From Liquidambar formosana (Eukaryota; Streptophyta; Magnoliopsida; Saxifragales; Altingiaceae), in NCBI GenBank assembly GCA_039720395.1, contig CM077831.1:9536333-9600332 (forward strand): a stretch of DNA of 64,000 bases. Direction: 5' to 3'. This document shows positions 10,383 through 51,085 of this stretch, one piece after another. The position numbers were made by a program, and so were the translations under genes. The notes beneath the pieces were generated by a model. That model had not been told where the DNA came from, ran no database searches, and was given only the letters and a program-made list of their open reading frames with translations. How positions within the stretch are numbered: the stretch's first letter is position 1; each line of letters starts with the position of its first letter.

Positions 10383-10474
10383 CCCATGACAGCCTATCCA
10401 CGCCTACCAGGTAGGCATGGGCACCCCACTCACGCTGGCATGGTAGGCGTGAGTGGGTTTCTCTTTGTATAAAG
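10383..10474 (+). promoter_or_regulatory. Promoter of the DUF7745-like gene of element A: palindromes and TATA box
   Basis: CCCACTCACGC (10425-10435) and GCGTGAGTGGG (10447-10457) form a perfect 11-bp inverted repeat around TGGCATGGTAG, the same core as at 2470-2480. A second hairpin, GCCTACC-A-GGTAGGC, lies near 10402-10416. A TATA box, TATAAAG, follows at 10468-10474. The coding frame begins about 160 bp further on. Confidence 0.6.
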
Positions 10475-10637
10475 TTGCCCGAAGTGGTGGACCATCCAGC
10501 ATTCACATCATTTGAAACAAAAATACCAGAGAGCATTCCTAGGACTCCGAGGCTTTCCAAAGTTCTCATTTCCTCTGGTTAGGGGCCCTATTGCCAGTGT
10601 TTCTGCTCCATAACTCTATCCTTTCTCCCATGAGGGT
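10475..10637 (+). other. Leader between TATA box and DUF7745-like frame
   Basis: No coding evidence. An ATG at 10630 is out of frame with the conserved product and stops after three codons; the conserved frame is open from about 10632 without an ATG. The native start has therefore been lost, or lies upstream across a frameshift. Confidence 0.4.
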
Positions 10638-12113
10638 TTGAAGAAGTGGGCATGCAGCTTATCTTCTGAAGAGGTGAGTCATATTCGCCCTGTTTATGGA
10701 AATCTTGTCTCATTAGTAGAAGTAGATGTGCATATTCCGCTGATGGAGGCTTTAATTAGCCGTTGGAATAGGGAGCATGCTTGCTTTAGATTTGGCACTT
10801 GTGAAATGGTTCCCATTCTAGAGGAACTTGGGAGGTTGATGGGGTTGTCCTATAGTCATGATGACTTGATTGATCCCATTGGTCGAGGAGGGAAGAATAC
10901 TTTGAGTAACCTGCTTGGGATTTGGCGAAACCATCTGTCTTTGAAATCAGGGGGTGCTGGGATGACCCCTAAGTGTTCTTTGTGCTTCCTTCTGAATCGT
11001 TTTGCTCACTCGGTAGGGTATGCGAACCATGAAGCGGCGTTCACTCGTGACGAGGAGAGTTGGAGGCAGAACCGTCCTCGAGTCTTTGCTTTGGCAGTGT
11101 ATGGATCGATTATCTTTGCATGTGAGCCAAGCCTCTTTGATAGCAAATTCAGCACTGTCGTGGATTAATTGGAGAAAGGCAGGACCGTGATTCTGATGAT
11201 CTTGAGCGAGATGATTCGCTCCGTGCATTGTTGTAGTGTTGATGATAGTAGTCCATTTCTAGGGTGCGCTGCTCTTCTCTCGGTATGGGTTTCAGAGCAC
11301 TTGTTTCAATTCCAAACTATTCCTATAGGTAGCTATCATCGAGAGGATTTGATTCATGACCATCTGTACACCAGTACTGTGGCACGGCCTTCCCTAGACA
11401 TGGTCCAGTGGGAGTTGTTTCTGAGTGATCCCCCTTTTGAGGCGATCGCAGGGAAGATGAGTTAGCTCTGCCAGTGTGATGCCATCTGGAGCTGTGATGT
11501 AGGGTTCTTTGTCCCACTAGTCGGGCTGTATGGCATGTCTGCTTTTCTCCCATACCGAGTACTTCGTCAGTTCGGTAAAGTTTAGGGCATTCCAACTACT
11601 GTTGACATCTCGTCTTGGTTCTTCGACTTTGCTCATTCTTCTGAGAAGAGAACTTAGGAGGCCATGAGGATGTGGGAAGGGAAAAACCACTATCCCATAG
11701 CATATGGGTATGATGTTGAGGGGTCCTTTGGGAACCGGTATGCGACTCGGGATTATCTGACCTGGGTGTCTCATGGCTTTGGAGCCAACTTGGAGCTATC
11801 AGGACCATCTGCATCCCTATCTATCAATCCATTATATGAAGATTTCCTTACCAACTGGTAGGTGCATCATGAGAGCATTCGCCATAGTTGGTTGTCTGCC
11901 CAGCGGTTTCTAGAGAGTCAGTGTACCGAGCTACAGACCGAGAAGGGTCGTTTGAGTGCCGAGCTCGAGTCATTGCGTACAGATGTGCAAGAGACGGTGG
12001 CTGAGGCTGAGGAACTAGTGTTGCCTAAATCATCATCTGGTGATACTTTGACTCAGCGGTGCAAGGAGTGCAGTTTCCTTGGTAAAGTGTTGAAAAGGTT
12101 CCGTGGAGTTTGA
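10638..12113 (+). pseudogene. DUF7745-like gene of element A, one frame with five stops
   Basis: The protein resembles the plant family now grouped as DUF7745 (function unknown; often found beside gypsy elements). Visible boxes are PLMEALISRWNREHACFRFG, then MVPILEELGRLMGL, RVFALAVYGSIIF, FLGCAALLSVWVSEHLF and FLPYRVLRQFG, and a final coiled-coil stretch with heptad Leu (QTEKGRLSAELESL). The frame is unbroken over about 490 codons but has stops TAA 11166, TAG 11463, TAG 11583, TAG 11655 and TAG 11859, with no frameshift. All five can arise from CAG, CAA or TGG codons by C-to-T change. It lies antisense to pol A and converges on it. The family name is from memory, so confidence in it is moderate; the conserved position in gamma supports a real gene. 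Confidence 0.7.
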
Positions 12114-20200: not shown

Positions 20201-20208
20201 TATTTATA
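20201..20208 (-). promoter_or_regulatory. TATA box of the gamma LTR
   Basis: On the minus strand TATAAATAGAGGC follows GGTTGGT, a canonical plant TATA box. Transcription is expected to start near 20170 and to read towards lower coordinates. The palindromic module lies about 200 bp upstream (20406-20464). Confidence 0.75.
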
Positions 20209-20405
20209 ACCAACCAACCATATGAACCAATGGTTGAGATTAATTCACCATAAAACCAATCTAGGGCTGTAATTAAATCCCATGAATGTTAAACAACTCA
20301 AAACCACCTCCCAATAGGCTTAGAAGTCCTTTAGAAGGCTGAAATTCGGAGTGGTAGAGTCCCATTTCGTCAAAAACTCAAAAAGAGAAAAATCAGGACG
20401 AAGGG

Positions 20406-20464
20406 CTCGGGTGACCGGTTGGGATGAACCGGTCCAACCGGTTGAACCCAACCGGTCACCCGAG
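20406..20464. promoter_or_regulatory. 59-bp palindromic module, LTR copy
   Basis: The arms CTCGGGTGACCGGTTGGG (20406-20423) and CCCAACCGGTCACCCGAG (20447-20464) are perfect 18-bp reverse complements; the centre holds further ACCGGT words. Two other copies of the same length lie before the antisense genes of this element (22722-22780 and 36280-36338). In the LTR it lies in U3, upstream of the TATA box. Confidence 0.85.
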
Positions 20465-21097
20465 AAGAATCCAAAAATTTTGGAATTCTAGCTCGGTTTG
20501 GACTCCGAACTTCAAACAGACTTAAATTCTTCATTTTAACTCCGATTTGAGTGATTCAAAAGCCAAAATTTCAAGGATTCAATACAGAATAAGCCTATAA
20601 TATTCTTGAACCAAGAATCCCCAACCACGGTCAGGTGGCTGGGTTTTCATGAGGCGATTACCCGAAAAAATATCAATTAAGTATAGGGTAATGTGGTGAA
20701 CCAATCCCAAACCTATCAATAAAATAAATTGGCACTTCAATTAGGCACATTTCATCATTCTAAGGTCAATGGAACACTTCGGAACAAATTTGGAAGTCAA
20801 TAGGAAAATATACGAAGTAAAAGACGAAATTGCCTTTTAAGTCACAAAAGTTCTAATTAGCTATCCAAACCTATCTGGAATTGAACCAAATTTGACACAC
20901 ATATCTAAAATGACCCTAGAAACTAAATGCAAGTGATGGGACTCAACAAAGAGTCAAAAATATGCATGCACTGATGACCTATTCTCCTAAGGCTTAAAAG
21001 GGCAAAATTGTCCTTTAAGGCTTAGGGACTCCTAAATGCTTCTAAACCTATCCAAATGCTATCATGATCTCATGGGGATGAAAATGGGGTGTCTACA

Positions 21098-21110
21098 GAT
21101 GCCCCTCATT
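21098..21110 (-). promoter_or_regulatory. Polypurine tract of element gamma
   Basis: The minus strand reads AATGAGGGGCATC directly before the LTR start TGTAGACACC. It parallels 2136-2148 in element A. Confidence 0.85.
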
Positions 21111-21229
21111 AGTGGAGTTTGCTTCGCAAGCGACACCAATGTTAGAAAAGACAACCCATTTTCACAAGAAAATGGCAAGGAACCAATGCTTGAATAGTGA
21201 CTACTAAGGATGTTCATGACTGCTATAAT

Positions 21230-21820
21230 GTACACTTGTACAAAATAGGGGGGGTTTGTGTGTGACTCGAAAGTCATTTAAACACATGGTACTCTCATAT
21301 GCCTATTCTTTCTAATAGGGGAACATATGCTTCTATAATGTACGCTCATTCTTTATAATGAGGACACGCACAAGATAGGGGGTTTGTGTGTGACTACAAG
21401 AGTAATTTAAACACACTATACTCTCATATGCCTATTCTTTCTAATAGGAACACATATGCTTCTATAATGTACGCTCATTCTTTCTAATGAGGACACGCAC
21501 AAGATAGGGGGTTTGTGTGTGACTACAAGAGTCATTTAAACACACCATACTCTCATATGCCTATTCTTTCTAATAGGAACACATATGCTTCTATAATGTA
21601 CGCTCATTCTTTCTAATGAGGACACGCACAAGATGGGGGGGGGGTTTGTGTGTGATTACAAGAGTCATTTAAACACACTATACTCTCATATGCCTATTCT
21701 TTCTAATAGGAACACATATGCTTCTATAATGTACGCTCATTCTTTCTAATGAGGACACGCACAAGATAGGGGGTTTATGTGTGACTACAAGAGTCATTTA
21801 AACACACTATACTCACTAAA
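21230..21820. repeat. 129-bp tandem array in the gamma 3' UTR, about 4.5 units
   Basis: GGACACGCACAAGAT recurs at 21362, 21491, 21620 and 21753. Each unit contains CATATGCCTATTCTTTCTAA, a G-run and GTGTGTGACTACAAGAGTCA. The last step is 133 bp because of extra Gs. Confidence 0.9.
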
Positions 21821-21834
21821 CAAAATCATGAAAC

Positions 21835-22480
21835 TTTAATTTTAACAATTTTGTTAAAATTAAGTGAGGGCAATCCATTCATTGTGCTATAATTTCATCA
21901 AGAAATAAATAGCAATGCAAAGAAATTCATGTATGTGACTCAAAGAGTCATTTAAACATACTATCACAAACACTCCTATCTAAGCAATGACAAGCTTTAT
22001 TTTAACAATCTTTGTTAAAACTAAGCGAAACAAATATTCCAATTGTGCTATAATTTCCTCAAGAAATTAATAGCAATGCAAAACATCCATGTATGTGACT
22101 CAAAGAGTCATTTAAACATACTTCCAAAACCAATTCCAATCAAGCATTCATACGCTTTATTTTAACAATCTTTGTTAAAATTAAGAAAAACACACATTCC
22201 ATTTATGCCATAATCTCCTCAAGAAATTAATAGCAATGTCAATTCATCATAAAGAATCAAGAAATAACAATTTCATGATCCTTACAAAGCATTTCAAGCA
22301 TTCAATCAACTCATCATCCAATCAACAAAGCTTTATTTTAACCTAAGGATTAAAAATAAGCAAGAACACTCAATCAATCCCAACGTGCTATAATTTCCTC
22401 AAGAAATAAATAGCAATAGCAATTCAATCACAAGAAATCAAGGAATATAAAATTCCATGGTTCCAAAAAAATATCATAAG
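21835..22480. repeat. Imperfect 150-177-bp tandem repeats with a hairpin
   Basis: Units share TTTTAACAATCTTTGTTAAAA, GTGCTATAATTTC(A/C)TCAAG and GACTCAAAGAGTCATTTAAA. The first unit holds a perfect hairpin, AATTTTAACA (21838-21847) with TGTTAAAATT (21852-21861). Starts are near 21841, 22011, 22161 and 22338. The GAGTCATTTAAACA word links this array with the 129-bp array. Confidence 0.75.
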
Positions 22481-23068
22481 CATCATCCTTCCATCATCCA
22501 AAGATAAAGCCCTTTAACAAAGCAATTGTCAAAGTGGGCTTGCAAATATCACCATGAGTGCACTAATAATTCAATTAGTGACTAATCACTCATCATTTCA
22601 TTCATTTCAAATCATTCACATCAGGTCCTAGGCCTTTCAAGAGAGATTTCATCAAAAAATCAAGCGAAAAGGGGCTCGGTTAAGCGAAATTGTGCGAAAA
22701 ATGCACAAAATGCAAAACCGATTTGGGGGACTGGTTGGACCGAACTGGTTGGACCGATTGGGGCCAACCGGTCACCCGAGAGGGATTTTTCAGCTGCATA
22801 TTTGGGGTGTTTTGGCTATGAAGCCTTGCACCATCCTCATTTGTTCATCATCCTTTTGCTTGTTTTTGAGAGCTTCTCTCTCTAGAAACCCAAAACCCAA
22901 CATTCCCAACTCCAAAATACCAAAACTTTGGCATTAAACTTGAATCATTGTGGTGATTAAACACCAACAACATCACTTTCAAGGAATCAAAACAACCTTT
23001 GATTCATCAAATCATCCTTCCCAACTTACTTTTTCAAATCAAAACCCATTTTTTCAAGAACACCCAAC
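22481..23068 (+). promoter_or_regulatory. Promoter and leader region of PMD gene gamma, with 59-bp module
   Basis: Contains the module at 22722-22780, whose right arm (CCAACCGGTCACCCGAG, 22764-22780) is intact and whose left arm is worn (15 of 19 positions match, mostly C-to-T changes). No strong TATA box is seen. The ATG used for the gene is at 23069, about 290 bp after the module. Confidence 0.55.
22722..22780. promoter_or_regulatory. 59-bp palindromic module, PMD promoter copy
   Basis: Same length and same right arm as 20406-20464. The left arm begins TTTGGGGGACTGGTTGGAC instead of CTCGGGTGACCGGTTGG-. Confidence 0.75.
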
Positions 23069-23379
23069 ATGAGTTCTTCATCAAATAAATACTCTGATGC
23101 CAAATATCCACATCATTTCCTCAAGAAAACATACAAAGCACCTCATTATGAAGATCAACCGGATAGCTTGCTCTTGGAACCCAACAATCATCTCTCCTAC
23201 ATCCATTCCATGAATGAGGTAAGATAATTCCCAACTCCTTCAGGTTCATTCTTATTCTTTCATTTCATTGTTTCTTTTCAAATATTTGCTATTCTTATGA
23301 ATGAAATGCATTGAGTTCTTACTATTTTGACAACTTTTGGGAGTTTTCCATATACAAAGACCTCATTTTCCAACATAGG

Positions 23380-24130
23380 CATAACTATGCCCACCAAGTG
23401 TTTGATAAAATTCCTAAGAGAATAAAATCATTCTTTTTGCTTTCAAATAGTCAAGATAATCAAAAGTGAACTCAAGAGCATTCTCTAGAATGTTAACCCA
23501 TGAATTTTGAAGTTCTTTTCTTTACAAAAAACCTTGTAGGCATAACTATGCCCACTAAGTGTTTGATAAAATTCCCAAGAGAATAAAATCATTCTTTTTG
23601 CTTTCAAATGCTCAAAGTTCTTAAACAAACTATCAAAGATATTTTCCCAGGAGTTTACCCATGAGTTTAAAAAACATTTTTCTTCACAAAAATCATGTGG
23701 GCATAACTATGCCTACCAAGTGTTTGATAAAATTCTCAAGAGAATAAAATCATTCTTTTTCTTTTCAAATGCTTTAGAAAACCAAAGGGAAACTCAAAGG
23801 CTTTCTCTTGGGATGCCTAAACCATGAATTTTGGAACACTTTTCCTTTATAAATACTTTGTAGCCATAACAATGATTACCAAATAAAACCATTTTTGCTT
23901 TCAAATACTTTGGAAAATCAAAGGAAAGCTTAAGGGTATTCCCTAGAATATCAACCTATGATTTTTTGAAATGCTTTTCTTTGTAAAAACTTTGTAGCCA
24001 TGACAATGCCTACTAAGTATTTGATAAAATTCTCCTTTTTCTTTCAAGTGCTTTAACCAACCCAAGGAAAACTCATGGGTATTCTCTTGAATGCTAACCT
24101 TTGATTTTTGAAACACTTTCCTTTGCAAAA
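23380..24130 (+). repeat. Tandem repeats of about 150-160 bp inside PMD-gamma intron 1
   Basis: Units carry GGCATAACTATGCC, AAGTGTTTGATAAAATTC and GAATAAAATCATTCTTTTTG, with starts near 23388, 23539, 23700, 23862 and 23997. Later units are shorter and more diverged. The host intron runs 23219-24260 (donor GTAAGA, acceptor TTCTTTGTAG). Confidence 0.8.
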
Positions 24131-24566
24131 AACTTTCTTTTCACATGTGTAAACTTTTGAAAATCTTGAAAAACCATGAATTTAAACATTCTTGAGTTAT
24201 TCATTAAGCACAGCAAATACTCAAAATAACAATTTCCATGATTTCCTTTATTCTTTGTAGCCAAACTTTGAGGACAGGACGAGACATGCCTTTGGGGGAG
24301 TTATTGAATGGTGGCGAAAAATGGCCACACGGCAACCCGAAACCCAAAAGATTATAGTTAATGTGGGTTTTGGAGACTTTCTGAACGCTTTGTGGGTGGA
24401 GCAGAGAGACAGACAAGCTTTGCTGGCCCTCACTGAGTTGTGGTGGGACACCACCAACACATTTCATTTCAGTTTTGGGGAAATGACTCTTACCCCAACG
24501 GACTTCACTGTCATTACTGGACTTCGCCTAGGTAGGTGGAGGTTATCATACTATGAGAATGCCCAC

Positions 24567-24571
24567 GGGGA
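24567..24571. other. Target-site duplication GGGGA, left copy
   Basis: GGGGA lies directly before the copia LTR start TGTTGGGAA (24572) and again directly after its end CCTAACA at 34261-34265. Removing the insert and one copy restores the PMD frame. Confidence 0.95.
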
Positions 24572-26229
24572 TGTTGGGAATGGAACAAGAGGGAAAAATA
24601 CAAAGGCGGAATATAAAAATTTTTCCTACGATTCCCAATCCCATGAATCTAACTATGCATAACACAAAATCAAACCCTAACTACAAAGAGGGTTAGAACA
24701 CTTACAGAATTTTTGTCTTCTCCTTTTTGCTCCAAGCTTTGATTCCGGACAGCGGTGAATGAGCAGCCCAAGTGTGCTGCCTCCAACGGTATCCACACCT
24801 AGCTAGAGCTTCAAGTCCTTTCTTTCTTCTTCCTTGTTGTTGCTAGAGGTGGAGAAGAGAGAGAGAGAGAAGAGAGCCTCCAAGGGGCTGGACGGCTAGG
24901 GTTTTTTGTGCAAGCCTCTTGTGCCATGTCACACATAAGTGTGACTTATATAGGCAGCCCACTAAAGGGGGCTGGCCATGGGGAAGAAACCCTAATAGGG
25001 TTATGTGTAATTACTCTTAATTGCACATTAACCCCTATTATTTGTATCAAATACAAATAGGCCCATAAAGAACTATTCTTTATTCACTAAAACCCTTTCT
25101 CTCATAGACTTTAAAGCCCTTCTTGCATGATCAGTGTGTGACCCATTGGGTTCACATCATTAAGTAGTAGGAATAGCACAAGGTGTGCACAACGGAACTC
25201 TTTCCATTTAGGGTCTAATTGGAACTCCTTCCAATTCCCTAATTGATTATAACTCACTTATATCAATTAGGGCTTCTACTAACCATGAGTAACACCTAGC
25301 ATATGGCTCATGGTGTGGTCCTTAATGAGGTGAATAGTCATTTACAAAGAACCCTTCTGTTATAGTTTATAGGTTACAATTGCATCCTTCCTTCAACACA
25401 ATGTCTCCAATTGAACTAATAGGACATGGAAGTCTGTCAAGTCCCTAGTTTAATTACTTTATACTCATTCATAGATATCAACTCATTGATGAACTCATGA
25501 AACTCTTTTCATATTCATCCTACCATGGCCATGGATTTAATGAGTTATATTATGAATGCTATATGAGACATTCTCTCTCTTTTTCCTGAGAGTGATGGAT
25601 CCCTTGTTGATCACTCACATGCCTTCATACACATAGCAGTAGGGCCAATGAACACCTTTGCAGACCCCTGAATAGGATCTGCACTTAGTGTTATCAAACT
25701 TCTAAAGCTACATGCATAAGGCAACTATGGTGTCTCAGGTCTAAGGATTACTTGTACCACTATAACAATGAGAAACCGATTGACAGGCAGGATAAAACTC
25801 CATTCAGTTTATCTCATATCTTTGGTCACATTCAGTGTACCTATTCTTATAATAGGCACCCACTTGTTGGTTGTAGTGTCTCCACACAAATAGCTTGAGA
25901 CTAGCTATCCTCCTATAGAGTCAACCTAACAAGTGCTAGTCCTATGGTTCATTACTGTCCATCATAGTGAACCTTCAACTAGGAATGCTTAAGGAGTTTA
26001 GTACAGAGATATATCTATAGTCTCAAAATTACAACTCTTTGTAATTCCATATTCTCAACTCTAACTCCATGGACATATTATGTAAATATAAATGATGCAT
26101 ATAAACATAATAGAATAAGCCCTTTTATTAAATCAATAATAAATGTGACATACATAAATGAAATCAAATGATTGTTCCTAATCCCTAAACAATCATCTCC
26201 ATGATTGGCTCTAGGGCATAATCCTAACA
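24572..26229 (-). repeat. 3' LTR of copia element 1, 1658 bp
   Basis: Flanked by TSD GGGGA at 24567 and by the PPT at 26230. The TATA box TATATAAG is on the minus strand at 24945-24952, beside the palindrome GTCACAC-ATAA-GTGTGAC at 24928-24945. It contains a GA microsatellite near 24850-24872. Confidence 0.95.
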
Positions 26230-26240
26230 ATCTCCCACTT
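26230..26240 (-). promoter_or_regulatory. Polypurine tract of copia element 1
   Basis: The minus strand reads AAGTGGGAGAT directly before the LTR start TGTTAGGATT. Confidence 0.8.
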
Positions 26241-26379
26241 GCACTAAAGCCAATTGACCATGTATCGCATACCTATCTTCTCAAGATGTTGGTCTTAGAC
26301 ATAACCAATTATGTTTTAAAGCTTTAGTCAGTAGGTCTACAAAAACTTATATAGATAATATCTTCTGTAATGTATCTAT

Positions 26380-27120
26380 TACCTTTTCCAATGATTCCTC
26401 TAATCACTTGGAATTGCCGCTCTATGTGTTTGGACTTTTGATGAGACCGTGATTCCTATACTTGAGATATAGACCCATTGTTGTCACAAAACAAGGTGTG
26501 GGCAACTCAATGGAAGGAACAACTTTAAGTTCTAAATGAACTTATAGATCCAAACAGTCTCCTAGACAATGCGACAATTAATTCACCCTTAATAATGGAA
26601 TCCACTGTATCTTTCATACAGTTCTTCCATTAAGTATTTCACCAACTAAAGTGAATATAAAATATACCCCATATGGATTATATCCAAATCCATATACCCA
26701 TCTACTATGAGTTTACAATTTCCATATACAATCCAATATTCCAAATTTGAATTGATTGATAACTATTTGTAACAATTACAACATAATAGATATTAGGTTC
26801 AATACATAGTGTAAAATAAGGCTTCTTAACACTTTAAGAATCTTACTTGTGTTATCCTAGGGCACATGCCCTTGAATAATGAATTCTTATCTGAAGTAAA
26901 TCAGACCTCCCTTAGAATTCTCCATGTTGAACTCCTTCAACATTTTAACTATGTTTGATGATTTGGAGATACTTAGCAATCTATATGATCTATCTCTATA
27001 GATCTTATTGGATGCTTCTGCCAAATCTTTCATGAATTAGTTTTTCTCCAAAAACTAAAACTTTACATTAGATAACATTCATATATCATTCATAATGATT
27101 ATGATGTCATCCATACTTAG
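26380..27120 (-). pseudogene. Copia pol remnant: RT C-terminal part and RNase H
   Basis: Translated on the minus strand by eye: FFILSMDDIIIIMND near 27090-27140 replaces the copia LYVDDILLIGND active site (V to M); FMKDLAEASNKIYRDRSYRL near 26990-27040; KMLKEFNMENSKGGL near 26900-26950; and DNNGSISQ, one stop, then ESRSHQKSKHIERQFQVIRG near 26385-26490, the RNase H C-terminal motif. Stops and frameshifts separate the pieces. Order and motifs fit the Tork/Angela-like branch of plant copia. No intact domain remains. Confidence 0.7.
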
Positions 27121-29500
27121 GATAAAGAAAAACGATCGCACTCCCACTAACCTTTTATACACTCATGGTCCATCTATACAATGAGAGAAATCAAACAATT
27201 TGATTACTTCAACTTTATAGATGTTCTAATTATGAGAACCTTGTAGTCTATTAATAGACTTCTATAACTTACACACTTTTATGGTTTTTCACCATTTGAT
27301 ATAACATCTTTATATCCTTTTTGACATATCTTATATTCAAAATGTGTGTTTATAGATAACAAGATCCAAATGGATTTCAGCATAACTATTATCAAACAAG
27401 TTTCTTTATAGACAACTTTTTGCCTATGTTGAAAACATTCTTAAATAGCCAAGCCTTTTAGGTCTCTACCTATCCATATTGGATTTAATGACTCTTAGTC
27501 ATTTCTCGAGTTGATGTGAAACATCGTCTAGTCATAATCAATAGGATTATCTTGGTGATCTTTATCACCAAAGAACAATTCTTTCACATTCTAATAGAGA
27601 TACAATATCTCTCTTATGTTAAGAAATATCCAATTTGATCTATGAAAAGATTGTAGTGTATTTAAGGGTTTTTGTCTTAACAGAGACAAGGGTTGGATCT
27701 TTGTTTGTTTGTGGCTTTACAGACAATTCTATAAATTCTATCTACTTTTGCATCTTCTTGAATGAACTCTTTCTCAAGAAAATCCAGCAAACATCCTAAT
27801 GGACAACTTTTGTTCATTAGGGTAATAGAAATACTATCCCAACCACTTTTGGGATATACCACAATTCAACACTTACTTGACCGTATTTCCAGATTGTCTA
27901 CATTAGGTTTCCAGACATACGTAGCACAAGCCCAAGCCTTAACTTCTTTAAGTTGGGTTTCTTCCCATATCATATCTGATATAATTGGGACAAAACTGGA
28001 GTGAACCCTAAATTATCAATATGTAGCAATTTTAAGGTATATCCTAGATGGATACATTAGTAAAACTCATCATGGATCAAACCATATCTTAATAGGGTTC
28101 AATTTGTTCTCTTAGATTCACCATTAAGCTATGGTATTCTAAGATGAGTCTACTATAATTGAATGCATGCTCTACATGACTGTATACATCACAATGTATA
28201 GTCAAATTATAAATGTAACTCATTCACTTCACCAAGTAAAAGATGGGTTTGGTCATCTCATAACCAAGTCATAATCGTTACATTTAAATGAGAGTCTCTA
28301 CATCTCTTGTATTCTCGGAATACGTTGCATTCGCTCTAATTAGTCATTTAAATTCGGAAATCAAATTTCTAGAATGTCTTAAATGACTTAGTTAAGAAAT
28401 AAGTTCCCAAAATTAATCTAGCAACTCTTGCTCTATTAAAATTTTTAAAGGTAACTTATTATCTACTTAACTTTCTGCTTCGATTTAGATTATACTAGAA
28501 TCCAAAAACCAAGAAGCAGAACTAACCAACAATTTAGTTTAGAGCATGAACCAAAACTTCAAAAGTTTGGTTCTTCTAGGAAGACTGATACTTTATCAAG
28601 TTCCCTTTACAATACCTTATATTTACTACAAAATAATTATATTTCTTTGTCTTTGACTTTTCAAGACTTGCTTTCCTCTATGCTTCCATTTTAAATCACA
28701 TCTAGCTACTCAAGCTATTCTATGTGATTAATCATTTTTCAAAAGAATGATTATTAATAAACAACTTTTATTACATCCTAGTCCAGAAGAAGTCCTTTAC
28801 AAGTACTATACTTTATAGTATTATTTTACTCACAATACAACCTTTGTATGTGATGTAGGACATCAAAGGCACTTGCATTGACTAATTTTGCTTCTGAAGC
28901 TCATTAGTCATCAATACTATCATATAGCATGGCAACAAGATGCCAATTGCGCATAGTGTCTTTTTCTTCTTAGGATGTTTTATGGAGGGCCTTTAATAAA
29001 AGGCCTAATAGCATATAAACAATCTTTTGAAATTGAGAACAATTCTCAATTTCCTAAGTCAATCAAAGAAATCGGGTTTAGTCAAACTATCAATATCCTA
29101 TATATTAGGAAATAGGGGTTTTGAGGTGAGTAATTAGGTAATCTACATAAACAGAGAATTAGATTTCATTTTTATCCATAATGATTGGGTCTTTAATCAT
29201 ATGGTACCTCCCACTATTTTATCAAATTCCACACCCTCTAATGGAATTCGGGAATCTCATTCCTAATGGGGATTGGGGTCCCACTGTGACCTAGAAGCCT
29301 CACATGTTAGTTTCTTGACTTCTAACCCACAATAAGAAGACAACTCTTTGTCTACTGCTTCATAAGCAAGTTCCAATCATTTTGCCTCTAGGGAACATAC
29401 ACCTCACATGTTAGTTTCTTGGAATACTTCCCTAGTTAAGTTAAACCCATCATTCACACAGGTATGTTTCGCCAAATATATACCTCACATGTTAGTTTCT
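27121..29500 (-). pseudogene. Decayed copia internal region upstream of RT
   Basis: AT-rich with many stops in all frames. Position implies former integrase and N-terminal RT, but I could not identify a convincing motif. A triplicated phrase, ACCTCACATGTTAGTTTCTTG, occurs near 29300, 29400 and 29482. Confidence 0.35.
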
Positions 29501-32500
29501 TGGTATATACCAGTTTAGGCACCCCATGATATCTCATATGTGATAGTTTCAAGTAATGTCTTTAACATGGGTAGCTCCTACATGTCTGCAGCCAGGTACC
29601 CACATTAAGGGACGTTAGATGATCCTATAATGATGGAAGGCAATGAAGAATTCATTCCCCAATGACTTCTCCATTTTCAACTTAATATTAAATAAGAGGG
29701 GTTTTAAAGGGTCTCATCAAATTAACATGCATCCTATGTATCAAAATTTAAACATATAAATTATGCTATTTATAATCATACATCTCATGCTATTATAAAT
29801 CATACATCGCATGCTATTATATATCAACATATATAAAGTACCATATTTTGATATTAGTCCCTAAGTGAATAGGTAACATATACCAAACTATGGTATTGGA
29901 GCTAAAACAATTATCTCATAAATTAAAAGCTCCCACTATGATGATTATGGACTTTGAGAGGATTCAATCCAAGCCAATAGATTGAATCCAAGGTCTAAGG
30001 TGGGTGTAGGTGATCGTAAAATAACACATTCGAAACATGCATGCTGTCTTGAAACACTTCTCTAAGCTTTTAAGTCCTTCAATCTGCTCCCTTGGCTTGA
30101 TGGTCTCCACCATTGGCTTGTTGGGCTCTATCATGCTCCTTTGGGTCCACCATGCTCCTTAGTGCGCTCTCGATTACATAACATTTACATAATTTAAAGA
30201 AAGGGATACATAAGGGGAATGTGGGGTACATAAGAGAATGATAGAGAGAGAGGGAGAGGGAAGGTGGCATGCAAGCCCCAAATAAATTACATCACCTTAA
30301 TAAAATTACAACTCTTGTAAATAATAACATCCCATTCATAAGACGGCCAATCACAATTGGTTTAAAGGGTATAGTCCATAATCATCATCCAAGCACATAC
30401 ATACAATCTCATTGCATAATGTAAAGAAAAACTGTAAGCATTAAAACATATGGGTAGTATGGTAATTCTCTTGAATGATTTACATTAATCTCATTAATGC
30501 ATCCTAATCTTATTAGGTTTTAACAAAAATATCCAGAATTAAATAAAGTCTTAACATTTAAGACATTACAGTTTCAATTAATCAAATTAATTTAAAACAT
30601 GCAAAGTTTCCTAAAATAACTCTAATATCCAATATTAGGGTTTCCTTAATTAAACAAAACAATTTCATTTAATTAAGAATTTCCAGATTTTAATTTAATC
30701 CCTAATTGTGTTTTAAACCATTTAAAACATTATAAAATTAATCAATATTAATTAAATAATTAATATAGGAATTAAATAAAATCATTAAAATGATGAATTA
30801 GTGTATTAGGGTTTCCTAAAACCCTAAACCCTAAATGCATAACCCTAAACCCTAAATGCAAGCCCTAATCATTAAATGCCTTATGATTGGTCATTTAATG
30901 ACCAATCATTAAAACCCTAGGTTCATACGGTATTTAATAAAAGGGATTAGGGTTTAATTTATGCCAAATAGGGTATTTATTACCCTTAATTAATTACACT
31001 AATTAGGGTTATCAAAAACCCTAACCCTAGACATCATTAATGGTATTAATTATGCCCTAACAATTAATAACCATGATTGGTCATTTAATGACCAATCATT
31101 AACTCTTAATTAAGGTAATTAATATTCCAATTAGGGTTTTAATTAATGCCATAATGAAATTAGGGTTTCATCATTAACTCAAAATTAGGGTTTCATCCTT
31201 AACTCTATGCAGCCGTCACTACCAGGGGGCTGCCTGAGCTTGGCTAGGCTGCCATGGCCACCAATGGCTGTGGCAGGCCATGGCCAGTCATGGGAGAACA
31301 TCCTAGGGGTGTGGGACAAGCCTCTGGACACGTGAGAAGTGGTGGAAGTGGCTGCCATCATCAAGAACAATCAGGGTTTCCAAACCCATTGCTGGAGCCA
31401 TTGTTGCAGACCTTGAAGGTCACAATAGCTTCTAAATCCTTATCAATTCGACTCCTCCATTGAAACCAGCTTTTGTATCATGTCCCTACATGAAATACTA
31501 AGCTAATAGAAGAGGTTTGGATGATCAAATCATCACCAATTGTTCGAAACAATTAAAACAACAGTAGGCTGCCCAGAATTTGACAGCACACTGTCCATGA
31601 TCAGAAATTGATTTAAAACCCAGCAAGATGAATGAATTAGGCTACCAAACGAATTTTCCAGTATCCTACATGTCTTAGGAAACTAATGCAATTGGTTTCA
31701 TGCAATTTGGAGTTCCCTAACTCAAGTTCTAATCAAAACTCCATTGATGACTTTTCTGCAGAAAACTTCTGCTATGCTGTTCATGAAAAATTTTCAAACT
31801 TTTTGAATCTTTTTCCGTCAAAACCTTTTTGAAACTTAAAGAAAATCATATACACATGATATATAATGATCCTATAATGATTTTCCATCATAAATACAGC
31901 AGCTTTAATTAGAATTAATTGCAAGAACCTTAGGGTTCTAAAACCCAGATTCAGCCTCCATGGTGTTCTTCTCCTTCTTCCTTTTGTTCAACATCTTAAT
32001 CCAATTATGATGCATCTAAATGCTTGGGAACCTTTCCCTACCATGTCTAGAACATAACCCAAGTGGTGGCAACCATTGCCATGCTTTTGATCTCCATCAA
32101 TAACTCAAAGTTGTGGCTATTGCATCATTCCCGAGCGAAACTGTCTTTCCAGACAGCCTGTAGTAAAAAATTCATAACTTTCACTACAAAACTCGGATTG
32201 ACGCACCGTTTGTTGGGTTGGAAAGCTTATTCGAAGATCTTTCTAACCATATATGGCTCGAAAATTTTGGAGAAGAACTCTGAATCCGGCATGCAAAACA
32301 AGATGACGGTTTTTCATGGCTACCATGAAAACTGTTCATAACAGTTTTATAAAACCCTAGTTTCCTTATTCTTCTTCTCCAAACTCAAACCCTATGCAAC
32401 CTATTGCATCCATGGCTACACTTAACCATCAATTAGAAGAGGAGTAGAAGAGAATTGACCTAGGGTTCCAAACCCTAGGATCAGCCAAGGAGGAAAACCA

Positions 32501-32588
32501 ATTATGCAGAAAAATTTTCCAGATTTTTGAATCATTCAACAACACCATAATTACCAGCCCATATGTATTTTGTATTATGCATAATCAT
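29501..32588 (-). other. Non-coding 5' internal region of copia element 1
   Basis: No gag frame is seen. It shares high similarity with 52200-55250 (copia element 2). It contains telomere-like AAACCCTAAACCCTAAATGC units at 30818-30870 and two 27-bp palindromes (30883-30909, 31073-31099). Its conservation between copies without coding capacity suggests it is part of a non-autonomous element family. Confidence 0.6.
30883..31099. repeat. Two 27-bp palindromes in copia element 1
   Basis: ATGATTGGTCA - TTTAA - TGACCAATCAT at 30883-30909 and 31073-31099. Matching pair in copia element 2 at about 53546-53572 and 53733-53759. Confidence 0.8.
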
Positions 32589-32601
32589 GGCTCTGATACC
32601 A
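32589..32601 (-). promoter_or_regulatory. PBS of copia element 1, initiator tRNA-Met
   Basis: The minus strand reads TGGTATCAGAGCC one base after the 5' LTR end, complementary to the 3' end of plant initiator tRNA-Met, the usual copia primer. Confidence 0.92.
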
Positions 32602-32602
32602 C

Positions 32603-34260
32603 TGTTGGGAATGGAACAAGAGGGAAAAATACAAAGGCGGAATATAAAAATTTTTCCTACGATTCCCAATCCCATGAATCTAACTATGCATAACACAAAA
32701 TCAAACCCTAACTACAAAGAGGGTTAGAACACTTACAGAATTTTTGTCTTCTCCTTTTTGCTCCAAGCTTTGATTCCGGACAGCGGTGAATGAGCAGCCC
32801 AAGTGTGCTGCCTCCAACGGTATCCACACCTAGCTAGAGCTTCAAGTCCTTTCTTTCTTCTTCCTTGTTGTTGCTAGAGGTGGAGAAGAGAGAGAGAGAG
32901 AAGAGAGCCTCCAAGGGGCTGGACGGCTAGGGTTTTTTGTGCAAGCCTCTTGTGCCATGTCACACATAAGTGTGACTTATATAGGCAGCCCACTAAAGGG
33001 GGCTGGCCATGGGGAAGAAACCCTAATAGGGTTATGTGTAATTACTCTTAATTGCACATTAACCCCTATTATTTGTATCAAATACAAATAGGCCCATAAA
33101 GAACTATTCTTTATTCACTAAAACCCTTTCTCTCATAGACTTTAAAGCCCTTCTTGCATGATCAGTGTGTGACCCATTGGGTTCACATCATTAAGTAGTA
33201 GGAATAGCACAAGGTGTGCACAACGGAACTCTTTCCATTTAGGGTCTAATTGGAACTCCTTCCAATTCCCTAATTGATTATAACTCACTTATATCAATTA
33301 GGGCTTCTACTAACCATGAGTAACACCTAGCATATGGCTCATGGTGTGGTCCTTAATGAGGTGAATAGTCATTTACAAAGAACCCTTCTGTTATAGTTTA
33401 TAGGTTACAATTGCATCCTTCCTTCAACACAATGTCTCCAATTGAACTAATAGGACATGGAAGTCTGTCAAGTCCCTAGTTTAATTACTTTATACTCATT
33501 CATAGATATCAACTCATTGATGAACTCATGAAACTCTTTTCATATTCATCCTACCATGGCCATGGATTTAATGAGTTATATTATGAATGCTATATGAGAC
33601 ATTCTCTCTCTTTTTCCTGAGAGTGATGGATCCCTTGTTGATCACTCACATGCCTTCATACACATAGCAGTAGGGCCAATGAACACCTTTGCAGACCCCT
33701 GAATAGGATCTGCACTTAGTGTTATCAAACTTCTAAAGCTACATGCATAAGGCAACTATGGTGTCTCAGGTCTAAGGATTACTTGTACCACTATAACAAT
33801 GAGAAACCGATTGACAGGCAGGATAAAACTCCATTCAGTTTATCTCATATCTTTGGTCACATTCAGTGTACCTATTCTTATAATAGGCACCCACTTGTTG
33901 GTTGTAGTGTCTCCACACAAATAGCTTGAGACTAGCTATCCTCCTATAGAGTCAACCTAACAAGTGCTAGTCCTATGGTTCATTACTGTCCATCATAGTG
34001 AACCTTCAACTAGGAATGCTTAAGGAGTTTAGTACAGAGATATATCTATAGTCTCAAAATTACAACTCTTTGTAATTCCATATTCTCAACTCTAACTCCA
34101 TGGACATATTATGTAAATATAAATGATGCATATAAACATAATAGAATAAGCCCTTTTATTAAATCAATAATAAATGTGACATACATAAATGAAATCAAAT
34201 GATTGTTCCTAATCCCTAAACAATCATCTCCATGATTGGCTCTAGGGCATAATCCTAACA
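32603..34260 (-). repeat. 5' LTR of copia element 1, 1658 bp
   Basis: Same length as 24572-26229 at a fixed offset of 8031, and identical in all stretches I compared. TATA box at 32976-32983 on the minus strand. Followed on the plus strand by TSD GGGGA (34261-34265). Confidence 0.95.
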
Positions 34261-36279
34261 GGGGATCCCCATTATCTCTTGGAACAACTCGGGACCATAG
34301 GACCCGTTCAAAGGGGTGGAGTGCGCAGAACTTGGCTAAAGAATCATTTTGGTGATCAAAGAGAAGAGGATGATGCGGATCCATCTTGTCTTGCCCGAGC
34401 CTTTATGCTATACATGTTGTCTAGCATATTCTTCGCTAGCTCTAGCGATGTCGCTCCTTTAGGGCATCTTGCTTGCATGGAGAATGTTTAGGAGATGGGC
34501 GATTACAACTGGGGTAATGCCGCTCTTGCCATACTGTATAGGTCTATGAGTGACAGATCACGTGGAGTGAGCACAAACCACTGCGGGATGTCCTTTATCT
34601 GGGAGGTAAATCAACCTACAAGCTTCCTTTTCAATATTTGCAATAAGTATGCATCGTTATTTTCTTTTGAAATTCATTTTCTTTTTGAAAACAGATTTGG
34701 TACTACGAGTACTTGGGGTTTGAGCGTCCTGCTCTTATTGACAATGATCCCTCTTGGCTTGTGATGTCCAATTATCACATTGACAATAGGTGTGACTCGG
34801 TGGATAATAAACACGACTATGCCCATGCTAGGGCATTCCTAGCTTGCATTACTGCTGACAAGGTAATCCCTAAAGCTTTTATCTTTTGAATTCCATCTTT
34901 TTTTTTTCTTTTTTTTTCAATTCTTTCTCTTAACACCAACTCATGAATTAGGTGGACTGGGATCCATGGGCACAATGGAAATATGCCCTTGAGGAGCAAT
35001 GCCACAGGTGTGTCGACATGACAGAAAAACGGATCCTCCTAAAAGGTCTTATGGGTTGCTACTGGTACCTCGGGGAGCGAGTTTGGCGCCAGGTAAAAGG
35101 CAACATCAATGCAGCTGTGGTTCCTATGGCACCACCTGAGAGCATGAGACATGCCAACTCCTTGCAGGGGTGCGAATTGATCAAAGCTATACGAGGCAAG
35201 GATGCGATTGACTTCATAGTTCTGAATGGGAACTACGAGAGTTTCTGTAGGAGGTATCTGATGCCTCCTAGGGTCGTAGGAGTTCCACCCGTAGGGGTAA
35301 GTACATACTCAACCCTATGCATACTTTACAAGTGTTTCCTAGCTGAGATTATGTGCAACTCTTTTCAGGGACAGCGAGCTCGTGGTCACCATTCCATAGT
35401 GGGTTCAACCTCGGGTGTGTCAGGAGTGCATATGGATAGTGATGAGGGCATGGATAGGGACGCACTGCCCCCTTTACCACGGCCTAGGTGGTCCATTGAT
35501 CTGTGCCAAGGAGGCGATATTGTGCCCACGACCATAGCACCTCCCGTGATGGACGAGGTTCCTCAGATAAATCCCAGATATGAGACTATAAGTTTCAAGC
35601 TTGACTTGATTCTCTTAATCCCCAACTTATTCATTACGCATTTCTTACCCAATTTCTCTTCACAGACACCCGCCGGGTATACACAAGAATGGATCAATCT
35701 CAATGCCAGCTTTAGGAGGGACATGATGAGGATGAGCCTAAGCCTATCAAGGCAAGAGGCGTATAGAGCGGGCGAACACGCACACCCAGTAAGAATAGCT
35801 CAAATAAAAAACTTTTTAAAAAATCTTTGGTTTTCTCCTTTAAAAAGTGGTTCTCACATCATTTGTTTTCTTGGAAACTTGCAGATTGATTCCTTCCCTC
35901 AGTACAACCCAACTGCGGCTCCACCACCTCCTCCACCAACAGAAGAAGCAGGGCCAAGCAAGAGAAGGAAACCACCAAGGAAGCGTTGAAGACACTTATT
36001 TTAAGTTTAGGAAACTTAATTTAAGCATCTAGAAACTCTTAACTTGTGAAATCCTTGTATTAAGCCTATGTGGACATTTATATTATCTTTCAAGTTCTTT
36101 CTTTTTAAACCAAGTTCATGCATTCCCCACCTTTGAATTATTATATCTATCTCTTGTTGGTTGAATTTCATGACTCTTGACACAAATTTGAGTCAATTTG
36201 GGCTCAAAATGGTCAAAATTGGCTTTCTGGAGCATACGGGGATCAAAAGTGGTCAAAAAAGGGAATCGGGAAAAACGGC

Positions 36280-36433
36280 CTCGGGTGACCGGTTGGACCC
36301 AACCGGTTGGACCGGTTAGCCTCAATCGGTCTCCCGAGCGGTTTCGCTGTTTACGCGTTTTTGCGACTTTTGACGCTTTTTTCGACTTTTAAGCTTTCTA
36401 GGACTCAAATTTGAGCCTAAAGGCCTATAAAAA
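36280..36433 (+). promoter_or_regulatory. Promoter of DUF7745-like gene gamma: 59-bp module and TATA box
   Basis: The module runs 36280-36338, starting CTCGGGTGACCGGTTGG and ending ATCGGTCTCCCGAG, with the same 59-bp length as the LTR copy. A TATA box (CTATAAAAAC, TATAAAAA at 36426-36433) follows 87 bp later; the first ATG is at 36482. Confidence 0.75.
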
Positions 36434-36527
36434 CACCCCACACATGTTCATAAACCATTATTATTCCTTTAAACTCAATTCATGGAGACTTTTGATAGCT
36501 TTTTGACACTTTGCTTCAGCAACATGA

Positions 36528-37745
36528 GTAAGGAAGACAAAAGGGTTTCAAGAATTATGGCTTGACGCGCTTTATTCCCTCGCCAAAGTAAAGGTAAATT
36601 GGACAATGCTCTATGCTTCTACATACTTTTGGGATCCTGAACCTCATGTTTTCCATTTCCATAGCAATGAAATTTGCCCCACCCATGAGGAATTTTGCGC
36701 GCTGTTCGGAGTGCAACCGTCGGGACCCTTCATCCTTCCATACCTTCGACAAGGTTATGTCTCTTCTTTTGCTTCTCTTCTAGAAATCTCTACCCACGAT
36801 GCTATGGCCTTTATAAAAGATAACATGGTAGATTTGAACAAACTAGCAACGTCTTTCCTGCCCCTTGGGAGGTCATGTGGGCTGCCCTTGTCTCGACCGC
36901 GTCAGCACGCCTTAGCTTTCTGCTTGATTAGGCAGTTTCTCATCACCAATGGTATGTTGTTTGTTCCAATTGAAATTTGTGAGCTTGTAACTCCTCTTTC
37001 CAAGTCCCGAAACATAATTCCAATGGTTCTATTGAAAACTCTCAATGGGCTAAACAAGGTACAGGATCGGTTTGAAGCGAATTTTGAGGGCATCCCCCTC
37101 CTTCTCCATATGTGGTTGCTAGAGAGGTTAAACCTCTTACCACCTCCTCGTGTTGCAAATTATGGGCCTCAGCACTTCCGTTTGCGTGTTCCTGAATTCT
37201 CGCCAGATGCTTCTCCTGATGAATGGCTTGGCATGCTGTACCACACCTCATGGCGATCTATCCATTGGCACGTGCCTCACTGGAAGTGCGATGAAAAGGT
37301 GCTCCTGCGAACTGTGGGCTGTACACTTATCAAGTTAATGGGCTTGAAAGCGACTTCTTTTTACTGGCCATCTCGAATCCTTCGGCAATTTGGTGCAGTT
37401 CAATTAATTCCAAATAATCAAGCAAGTACCACCCAGACAAATTCAAATCAGGTTCACTCCGTTTAACCCGTTTCTCAGTCTCTAGTTAAATGGATGGAGG
37501 AGAGATGGAATGGTTGGAACTCTGCTACCCTAGTTCCAAATACTAATGGACCTTATGAGCTTAGCGAAGAATACAAGAAGTGGTTATCTAAAGACATTGG
37601 CCACAAAGAAACGACCATGAGAGCTCAAGTAGCTGAGTTAATTGGGATTTCTCCACTGAGGGGTGAAAAGAGGCCAAGAAAGGACGACACCAAAGCAAAC
37701 AAGACTACTGGAACAAAGAAGACTCCTCAGAGAGCAAGGAATTAA
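36528..37745 (+). pseudogene. DUF7745-like gene of element gamma, one internal stop
   Basis: The open frame gives about 405 codons. N-terminal boxes: ELWLDALYSLAKVKVNWTML then YASTYFWDPEPHVFHFHSNE and CPTHEEFCALFGVQPSGPF, matching the FWNP...FTFG...PT.EEY pattern of the family. The middle has HALAFCLIRQFLITNG and FEGIPLLLHMWLLERL; later FYWPSRILRQFGAVQLIP; the tail is basic (RGEKRPRKDDTKANKTTGTK). One TAA at 37464 splits the frame. The ATG at 36482 is in another frame and meets TGA, so either a frameshift or a small intron lies near 36525. Sequence has diverged far from the copy in element A, but boxes and position agree. Confidence 0.65.
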
Positions 37746-39228: not shown

Positions 39229-40440
39229 CTATGAATCTCTGGATGTCATAGAACCACGGACGCCATCTGTTACTTGACTATTTTGAATATTGCAACAGTA
39301 CACTGGCTCTTTTCTTCTTTCAATCACGAGTGGACGAACATTTCTGCCTTCGGGGATTTCCACCATGGACGTAAGTGTAGCGAGAGCGTCAGCGAAGCGG
39401 TTCTTTACCCTTGACAAGTAGTGGAACTCTATTTTGTTGAATTCTTTGGTAAGTGCTTCTAGATAAGCATGATAGGGTAACAGCTTCTTGTCTCGAGTCT
39501 TCCATTCTCCTCTAATTTGGCAGATAATCAAGGCTGAGTCTCCATACACTTCTAACTCTTCAACTCCCAACTCTAAGGCTGCTTCCAACCCTAGAATGCA
39601 AGCTTCATATTCGGCGATGTTGTTTGTGGCTTCGAACCCTAACTTCATTGCCAAAGGGGTGTGGGCGTCATTAGGAGAAATCAACAAGACTCCAATGCCG
39701 AAGCCCCTTTTATTTGCAGCACCATCGAAGTAGAATTTCCATGGCTTCTTTTCTATCTCTAATATGTCCTCGTCAGGGAACCCTTGTTTAATGCCATCTC
39801 CTTCTGAAACTGGATTCTCAGCCAAGTGTTCTGAAATGACTCTCCCTTTTATCGAGCTCTGTACCACATACTTGATATCAAATTCAGATAATAACATCAA
39901 CCACCGCGCAGTACGATAGGTTAACATTGGCTTTTCAAGTAGATATTTGAGTGGATCCATGCGACTAACTAGGAACACCTGGAAAGATAACATGTAATGG
40001 CGGAGTTTTTGGGAGGCCCACACCAATGCCATGCAAGTCTTTTCCACAGCGTTATAGTTCACCTCATAGTCTGTCATTTTCTTACTCAAATAGTAAATGG
40101 CATTCTCTTTTCTCGAATCTTCCAAGTATTGTGCGAGCATTGCCCCCATAGCAGTTTCTGTGACAGTTAAGTACAGCAACAACTGCTCTCCTTCTCTAGG
40201 TGGAACCAGTATCGGTGGATTGCTTAAGTAGTGTTTAATGGCTTCAAAAGCATTCTGGCATTCCTCGTTCCATTCTTTCGGTTCTCTTTTCTTTAGCAGC
40301 TTAAAAATGGGCTCACAAATAGTAGTGAGTTGAGCTATGAACTGGCTTATGTACTGTAATCTTCCTAGGAAACCTCGGATTTCCTTCTCATTTTTGGGCA
40401 GCGGCATCTCTAGAATGGCCTTGATCTTGCTTGGATCCAC
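39229..40440 (-). CDS. Dual RNase H region of element gamma, 403 codons open
   Basis: One uninterrupted frame. Residues 1-75: end of RT connection (GFLGRLQYISQFIAQLTTIC). Residues 80-215: RT-linked RNase H (AIYYLSKKMTDYEVNYNAVE). Residues 240-365: second, archaeal-type RNase H with all four catalytic acids visible: FYFDGAANK, NIAEYEACILGLEAAL, VYGDSALIICQ and RFADALATL. Acquisition of this second RNase H is a hallmark of the Tat clade. It follows RT and precedes integrase. The open frame suggests recent activity, but flanking domains are broken, so it is best regarded as part of a damaged polyprotein. Confidence 0.88.
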   Translation of the reverse strand: MDPSKIKAILEMPLPKNEKEIRGFLGRLQYISQFIAQLTTICEPIFKLLKKREPKEWNEECQNAFEAIKHYLSNPPILVPPREGEQLLLYLTVTETAMGAMLAQYLEDSRKENAIYYLSKKMTDYEVNYNAVEKTCMALVWASQKLRHYMLSFQVFLVSRMDPLKYLLEKPMLTYRTARWLMLLSEFDIKYVVQSSIKGRVISEHLAENPVSEGDGIKQGFPDEDILEIEKKPWKFYFDGAANKRGFGIGVLLISPNDAHTPLAMKLGFEATNNIAEYEACILGLEAALELGVEELEVYGDSALIICQIRGEWKTRDKKLLPYHAYLEALTKEFNKIEFHYLSRVKNRFADALATLTSMVEIPEGRNVRPLVIERRKEPVYCCNIQNSQVTDGVRGSMTSRDS

Positions 40441-40452
40441 TTCAATTCCCCT

Positions 40453-41433
40453 CTATATTATCATAAAACCTAACAGCTTTCCCGCAGTGACTTCGAAAGC
40501 ACATTTCTGAGAATTGAGGCGAAGCTTGTACTTTATTATTCGATCGAAGAACTTTCTGAGCACAGCTATATGTCCTTCCCTATCCTTTGACTTGACAATC
40601 ATGTCGTCGACGTAAACCTCGACCTCTTTGTGTATCATGTCATGCAACAAGGTGGTAGCAGCTCTCTGATAAGTTGCCCCTGCATTCTTTAATCCGAACA
40701 GCATTACTTTGTAATAATAGGTCCCCCACTGAGTGATGAAGGACATTTTCTCCATATTTTCTGGTGCCATCTTGATCTGATTGTAACCCGAGAAACCATC
40801 CACGAAAGAAAGAAGAGCGTGCCCTGCGATACTATCAACTAACATGTCAATGTGTGGTAGTGGAAAGTCATCCTTAGGGCATGCCTTATTCAAATCACGA
40901 AAGTCTACGTACATACGTACTCTGCCATCCTTCTTTGGAACCAGTACTATATTTGCAAGCCATTCAGGGTACTCCACAACCTTAAGGAACTTAGCTTCTA
41001 TCTGCTTGATCACATCTTCTTTTATCTTCAACGCCCACTCAGGCTTCATTCTCCTTAACTTCTACTTAACAGGCTTCATGTTAGGATTGGTTGGAATGTG
41101 ATGCTGCACTATGTCTGTGTCTACTCTAGGCATATCTTCATAAGACCATGCGAACGCTTCAAGGTTTTCTCTCAACAACTCAACCAATTGTTCTTTTTCA
41201 GAAGGGGAAAGTGTTGTACCAATTTTAATTATTTTTGGCAATTCATTCGTCCCTAGATTAATTGATTCTAGTTCTTCTATAATTGGTTGTGCTATCCCTT
41301 TATTCCTTTGCTCAACGAGCTCGGGAGGGATATCAGCGTCTCTAGGGTCTATTTCCATGCCACACACATTAAGAGACAAAAAGGCGCAAAGACAATGAAT
41401 ATAATCTTTGTGAGAAAATAAAGAAAGTACCAA
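40453..41433 (-). pseudogene. Reverse transcriptase of element gamma
   Basis: Two open pieces: 41433-41062 (pre-RT with GTNELPKIIKIGTTLSPSEK and EAFAWSYEDMPRVDTDIVQH) and 41049-40453, which holds RT boxes VLVPKKDGRVRMYVDFRDLN, LLSFVDGFSGYNQIKMAPE, MLFGLKNAGATYQRA and the intact active site EVYVDDMIVKS. A stop in the SxKQKLRR junction (about 41055) and one at 40450 interrupt the frame. The catalytic residues themselves are kept. Confidence 0.88.
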
Positions 41434-50811: not shown

Positions 50812-50819
50812 TATTTATA
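50812..50819 (-). promoter_or_regulatory. TATA box of the beta LTR
   Basis: The minus strand reads CCCTATAAATACTCCC. It lies about 190 bp downstream of the palindromic block at 51006-51085, the same spacing as in gamma. Confidence 0.75.
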
Positions 50820-51005: not shown

Positions 51006-51085
51006 CTCAGGTGACCACCTGGGGCTGGGCGGCTAGCAGCCTGGGCCCAGGTGGCTAGCCGCCCAGGCCTGGGTGGTCACCCGAG
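51006..51085. promoter_or_regulatory. 80-bp GC-rich palindromic block in beta U3
   Basis: The arms CTCAGGTGACCACCTGGG and CCTGGGTGGTCACCCGAG are near-perfect reverse complements (3 mismatches in 18), with inner arms GGGCGGCTAGC and GCTAGCCGCCC. The outer CTC(G/A)GGTGACC ... GGTCACCCGAG matches the gamma module; the core differs (CCTGG words in place of CCGGTT). Confidence 0.75.

Follow-up and report, generated by a model that had tools for sequence, protein, structure and literature searches.

The DNA considered here is a 64-kb stretch of plant-type sequence from Liquidambar formosana (contig CM077831.1), called the window below, with positions counted from its first base. Several Tat-type Ty3/gypsy retrotransposons lie in it on the minus strand. 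Three families are distinguished, namely G (termed gamma in an earlier annotation of the same DNA, hereafter the original prediction), U, and L, and each was sampled once, as one G locus, one U long terminal repeat (LTR), and one L element. The subject of this analysis is a 59-bp palindromic block found in the U3 region of the G LTR and again upstream of both antisense plant mobile domain (PMD) genes of that element, together with comparable symmetric blocks in U and L (Table 1).

Table 1. Positions of the modules, promoter features, genes, and elements discussed in the text.
Feature	Position	Strand	Details
G LTR U3 module	20406..20464	-	59 bp; four ACCGGT boxes, spacing 14/9/14; 26/29 paired
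G module before antisense gene A	22722..22780	+	59 bp; boxes ACTGGT, ACTGGT, ACCGAT, ACCGGT; 20/29 paired
G module before antisense gene B	36280..36338	+	59 bp; three ACCGGT boxes and a fourth box ATCGGT; 22/29 paired
TATA box of G LTR (TATAAATA)	20201..20208	-	198 bp from module edge
TATA box of G gene B (TATAAA)	36426..36433	+	87 bp after module
T-rich block CTTTTTGAGTTTTTGACG	20368..20385	-	TATA side of G LTR module; by eye
G LTR start (TGTAGACACCC...)	21097	-	polypurine run AATGAGGGGCA immediately before
Antisense gene A of G, first part	23069..24571	+	ATG at 23069; PMD match of 37.7 bits in 24261-24569, above curated cut-off
Antisense gene A of G, second part	34261..35989	+	after nested element; PMD matches weak, below cut-off
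Antisense gene B of G	36482..37742	+	ATG at 36482; PMD 55.2 bits and DUF7745 33.7 bits, both above cut-off
G pol	39232..41061	-	RVT_1, RNase H, then second RNase H (RVT_3)
Nested LTR element	24572-34260		splits G gene A; LTRs of 1,658 bp, identical; GGGGA on both sides (direct reading)
U LTR U3 module	51006..51085	-	80 bp; 34/40 paired; outer 11-bp arms 21/22 like G
TATA box of U LTR (TATAAATA)	50812..50819	-	187 bp from module edge
L module before antisense gene A	2464..2511	+	two 23-bp units (2464-2486, 2489-2511) of type TCAYGCTKGYATGGYMGGCRTGA
L module before antisense gene B	10398..10452	+	unit 10430-10452 20/23 and 19/23 like gene-A units; unit 10398-10420 diverged
TATA box of L gene B (TATAAAG)	10468..10474	+	15 bases after last unit
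L antisense gene A	7326..10032	+	PMD 21.8 bits, below curated cut-off of 34.9
L antisense gene B, open part	10614..11165	+	DUF7745 47.0 bits; PMD 21.4 bits, below cut-off

Compared without gaps, the reversed LTR copy of the G block is identical to the gene-B copy at 50/59 positions and to the gene-A copy at 45/59, and the two antisense copies agree with each other at 46/59; the 60-bp flanks beside the modules, by contrast, are identical at only 15-24/60. Elsewhere in the window, the best non-overlapping match to any of the three reaches 32/59. Local alignment of the promoter regions gave scores of 46 (LTR and gene B), 32 (LTR and gene A), and 39 (gene A and gene B), against maxima of 20, 18, and 20 after dinucleotide shuffling, and none of 300 shuffles attained any of the three observed scores. 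The claim of the original prediction that similar 59-bp blocks occupy the LTR U3 and the regions before both antisense genes is thus borne out, with similarity confined to the blocks rather than their flanks. Other GC-rich, strongly folding stretches do exist in the window (for example, 31201-31290) and could prompt the suspicion of chance or a simple-sequence artefact; the shuffles refute this explanation for G, and its overall probability is negligible. The rarity of the outer-arm pair argues in the same direction, as this pair with a 30-60 bp gap occurred in no viral-contig stretch and in a single prokaryote contig, where it belongs to an unrelated bacterial repeat array. In that contig (Verrucomicrobia L002:1285-1445), GTCACCCGAGTGACC-type palindromes are densely arrayed between genes and, judged by eye, have no relation to the plant module. 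The one exact 17-base match among viral contigs sits in DNA of bacterial or phage appearance (by eye) and was taken as chance.

Each G block is built on four boxes beginning at module positions 9, 23, 32, and 46, so that the spacing of 14, 9, and 14 is symmetric around the centre. The boxes start at 20414, 20428, 20437, and 20451 in the LTR copy and at 22730, 22744, 22753, and 22767 before gene A, and all of these fit ACYGRT; before gene B they start at 36288, 36302, and 36311, with a diverged fourth at 36325 as located from the alignment. Exact ACCGGT words number ten in the window, eight of them within the modules (four in the LTR copy, three before gene B, and one before gene A) and the remaining two at 11734 and 44783. 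The inner ACCGGT words of the original prediction are therefore confirmed as a concentrated, regularly spaced four-box layout. Three of the box changes before gene A are C-to-T or G-to-A transitions at CG or CNG sites, a pattern that would fit the decay of methylated cytosines.

The blocks stand in promoter-like positions. The distances to a TATA box given in the original prediction, about 200 bp for the LTR and 87 bp for gene B, agree with those measured (Table 1). A T-rich block lies between the G LTR module and its TATA box, and similar blocks (CTTTTTGAGT...TTGACG-like) were recognized by eye at 50979-50997 (minus strand) in the U LTR and at 36357-36375 (plus strand) before gene B; these may constitute a second shared promoter element. 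The LTR and gene-B copies of the G module also share their orientation to the TATA box and, in gapped alignment, a weak flank similarity that extends over roughly 38 columns towards the TATA box. Such remnants would be in keeping with antisense promoters that were seeded by a duplicated piece of the LTR, the module being a relic without function. Against this origin stand the low ungapped identity of the flanks and the presence in the L family of a shared unit of its own, and we regard it as quite unlikely.

A second LTR in the window, that of U, begins near 51790 and is collinear with the G LTR, the two aligning along U3. Its module occupies the matching place (187 versus 198 bp from TATAAATA) and, rather than any G copy, is the best palindrome in the window at half-width 40 (34/40). 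The flanks of the U and G modules are 54% identical upstream (102/189) and 52% identical downstream (110/213). Whole modules agree at 35/58, with an interior agreement of 17/36 that 31 of 60 shuffled interiors attained, and hence at chance level. Both modules are nevertheless self-complementary: the inner word has changed on both arms, to CCCAGG/CCTGGG in U, with symmetry, outer arms, and place retained. No antisense gene in the window was assigned to U. A recurrence of U-type words near an antisense gene was considered and dropped, as four of the five words occur in the U module alone and the fifth, GGCTAGCC, is found also at 15668 in L pol.

The L element has different units before its antisense genes, with words of the CAYGC type and no ACCGGT in either of its two antisense promoter regions. 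The 23-bp units at 2464, 2489, and 10430 are one another's best matches in the 64 kb (20, 19, and 18 of 23), compared with 15-16/23 at unrelated sites. As a control, 1,500 random 23-mers were drawn in the region, 553 of which passed a GC filter, and in 3/553 cases a 20/23 match lay at a distance above 1 kb. The fourth unit, at 10398, is itself palindromic (20/23). A resemblance of the L modules to those of G was rejected, the relevant scores being reached by 138 and 233 of 300 shuffles. The L modules and the U palindrome are additions to what the original prediction had described. By eye, a stretch of about 230 bp ending in TTTTGCAGATA occurs twice ahead of the start of L gene A (6835-7325), perhaps a duplicated splice acceptor region.

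Dyad pairing among the G copies is strongest in the LTR, where the first 18 positions pair without a break, in accordance with the perfect 18-bp inverted repeat arms of the original prediction; gene B and gene A follow in that order (Table 1). When palindromes were ranked across the window at half-width 30, the LTR copy came first with 26 pairs. The gene-B copy, with 22, compares with 21 at unrelated sites, and the gene-A module was rejected as a significant palindrome in isolation because its 20/29 falls within the window background. Relative to shuffled sequences, sense-strand RNA folds strongly at the G LTR (-49.5 kcal/mol, z -9.4), the U LTR (-67.2, z -8.1), G gene B (-36.4, z -5.8), L gene B (-38.1, z -5.0), and G gene A (-25.6, z -4.0). 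These make up five of the six modules; at the sixth, L gene A, folding is not clearly beyond shuffles (z -1.5, with 18/200 shuffles folding equally well). The palindrome could thus act as a hairpin in the genomic RNA, U3 being transcribed at the 3' end and the other two copies lying internally, with small-RNA production, packaging, or export as its purpose. The retention of pairing through the replacement of the interior between G and U accords with such a role, as does the attraction of small RNAs to palindromic LTR regions of Sireviruses summarised in PMC10760457. The gene-A and gene-B copies of G, however, are more weakly paired yet keep the positions of their boxes, the L gene-A module does not clearly share the folding, and maize Ty3 elements lack an obvious peak of such structures according to the same source. 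A hairpin role is consequently judged improbable.

Symmetric boxes, fixed spacing, promoter positions, sharing within an element, and difference between elements together lead us to infer a control site common to the LTR and antisense promoters. Comparing the three families suggests that family-specific symmetric blocks mark the LTR U3, the antisense promoters, or both: blocks with other words occupy the matching LTR place in U and precede both antisense genes in L, and antisense PMD/DUF7745 genes are present in G and L. For G, we consider it probable that the 59-bp block is the putative site of one symmetric factor, which would couple transcription of the sense gag-pol with that of the two antisense genes. 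This factor, dimeric or tetrameric and of a specificity that shifts between elements, would bind the dyad-symmetric block, and the element's own PMD product and a host protein are both candidates. Binding to the block, a transcriptional effect of that binding, and the use of a separate factor by each family are inferred from these patterns. The likeliest logic would be feedback, in which the LTR and the antisense genes' own promoters are both targets of the antisense proteins, or of a host factor that these recruit, with either promoter activation or protection from silencing as the outcome. The original prediction had likewise envisaged a single factor for the LTR and both antisense promoters, and this part of it gains indirect support from the module-only similarity, the box spacing, the promoter placement, and the comparable blocks in U and L.

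Several results weigh against a shared, factor-bound control site. As palindromes, the gene-A module lies inside the window background and the gene-B module barely above it, and the stretch from the gene-A module to the start codon contains no TATA-like word. Alignments of the U LTR with the G gene-A promoter, and of the L with the G promoters, did not rise above shuffle level. In L, the fourth unit has at most 16/23 identity to the other units, equal to one unrelated site, and the whole-promoter shuffle test was modest, its score being reached by 3/300. With the L LTR starting at 2135 and extending beyond the window edge, most of its U3 falls outside, and G is the one family in which a module is seen to be shared with the LTR. 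Strong folding at the LTR modules is compatible with an RNA role as well, and every family is represented by a single example.

Who would bind the block is a separate matter. As a sub-case of the control-site reading, the three promoters may all make use of a host transcription factor, the element itself encoding no binder. The Sirevirus palindromic boxes matched mainly stress-related PLACE sites (PMC2829016), and the T-rich block beside three modules (by eye) suggests a compound promoter, both of which are congenial to a host factor. One such factor would have difficulty explaining why the words differ among neighbouring families, and we consider this version somewhat unlikely. More speculative, and in our judgment rather doubtful, is a private lock and key for each Ogre family, whereby a diverged antisense PMD protein would recognize the palindromic block of its family at the LTR and at the promoters of both antisense genes, giving a circuit of anti-silencing or activation that feeds itself. 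The DNA word would then be replaced wholesale between families, with symmetry and place kept.

Among known systems, the closest precedent is provided by the Sireviruses of the Ty1/copia group, in which palindromic boxes precede the LTR TATA and, where an env gene is carried, also lie 5' of it (PMC2829016). Twelve of the 13 boxes listed there have a CGG-CCG core, and the sequence varies by element (PMC2829016). The ACCGGT boxes of G likewise carry a CGG/CCG core ahead of TATAAATA, at the distance given in Table 1. In Sireviruses, however, a single short box is repeated 8 to 32 times in each element, whereas each promoter here has one compound four-box block, and their boxes accompany a sense env-like gene in a Ty1/copia element instead of antisense genes in a Ty3/gypsy Tat element. 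Nor does G itself appear to be a Sirevirus, since its RVT_1-type reverse transcriptase is followed by two RNase H domains (the order of the integrase was not checked). The G, U, and L blocks are best described as a variation on Sirevirus-like palindromic promoter boxes. This precedent lowers their novelty, and the suggestion in the original prediction that they form a new system finds no support. Within Tat or Ogre promoters, no report of a shared palindrome was found among the open-licence papers searched.

Other parallels are more distant. In VANDAL transposons, family-specific short non-coding motifs evolve together with VANC, a DNA-binding protein encoded by the element (PMC5735166). Family specificity of the motif words is common to both cases; the VANC motifs are dense same-orientation tandem repeats in a DNA transposon, in contrast to palindromic blocks in a retrotransposon that are known from sequence. 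No VANC homology appeared among the Pfam matches, although no search aimed at VANC was made. Tat elements carry antisense open reading frames (ORFs) with promoters of their own, whose function is described as unknown (PMC7264820; PMC11963269), and gene23 of Grande is transcribed in antisense from its own promoter and has a nuclear product (PMC7264820). Unlike gene23 and the Retand antisense ORFs (TRP28), the antisense products in the present window are of the PMD/DUF7745 type, and TRP28 was absent from the Pfam matches of the pieces scanned. An in-text search found no mention of palindromes in PMC7264820 and, in PMC11963269, uses in the reference list only. MAIN and MAIL1, two PMD proteins of Arabidopsis, are connected with a promoter motif, DOWN, present at 25/26 commonly down-regulated genes (PMC7156037; PMC9899485). 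The likeness lies in PMD proteins tied to a promoter motif, DOWN having been compared by description. The difference is that MAIN and MAIL1 concern host genes and that their link to DOWN is one of association, direct binding not being shown in the accessible parts of those two papers. A shared, family-specific block would offer a concrete target for the function of the antisense genes. Should a family's PMD protein indeed recognize and regulate its block, a sequence-specific role would be added to a class of proteins that in Arabidopsis also takes part in transposon silencing, and the elements would possess a regulatory circuit resembling those of retroviruses.

Both antisense genes of G are now damaged. 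Gene A is split by the nested LTR element, whose GGGGA target duplication falls inside a PMD exon. In gene B, the frame changes close to the start when compared with the related protein P0001, and a stop codon follows at 37464. A protein search with gene B returned four relatives, without genomic context, and a search with the PMD alignment found no relative in prokaryote or viral contigs. The predicted structure of the gene-B relative P0001, computed from five sequences, had a mean predicted local distance difference test (pLDDT) score of 40.9 and was not used. P0004, a PMD/DUF7745 protein on a 933-base contig filed as Modestobacter lapidis, likely represents plant contamination of a bacterial assembly.

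The G element itself is probably a Tat retrotransposon of the Ogre type. In Ogre and Retand, the second RNase H sits between the first RNase H and the integrase, and 57% of Ogre elements have a PMD extra ORF (PMC6317226). Domain matches for the two RNase H domains of G pol place RT_RNaseH and then RVT_3 within 39232-40452, and both antisense genes of G have PMD matches above the curated cut-off (Table 1). The primer binding site of Ogre/Tat elements is complementary to tRNA-Arg (PMC9289625); the single primer-site pattern tried on G gave no match. A pol piece had no relative in viral contigs.

The remaining observations concern the make-up of the window. The internal region of the nested element lacks any reading frame above 100 codons in the ORF list, and the element is probably recent and non-autonomous. 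A diverged relative of it, with pieces 87-94% identical and an additional LTR copy, spans 52198-58762 and is apparently inserted in a G-like element. Two consecutive reverse transcriptase regions, 71% identical, occupy 40234-44058; G pol apparently stops near 42840, with U gag-pol apparently starting near 42940, at what would be a chimeric or truncated junction. Another junction between families is found at 17787-21097, where the leader piece after the G LTR is 89% like 63808-63999 and is followed by a different gag region taken as L. Tandem arrays lie at 34-1977, 6253-6815, 21249-21814, and 49820-50544, with periods of about 162, 80, 129, and 181 bp, respectively.

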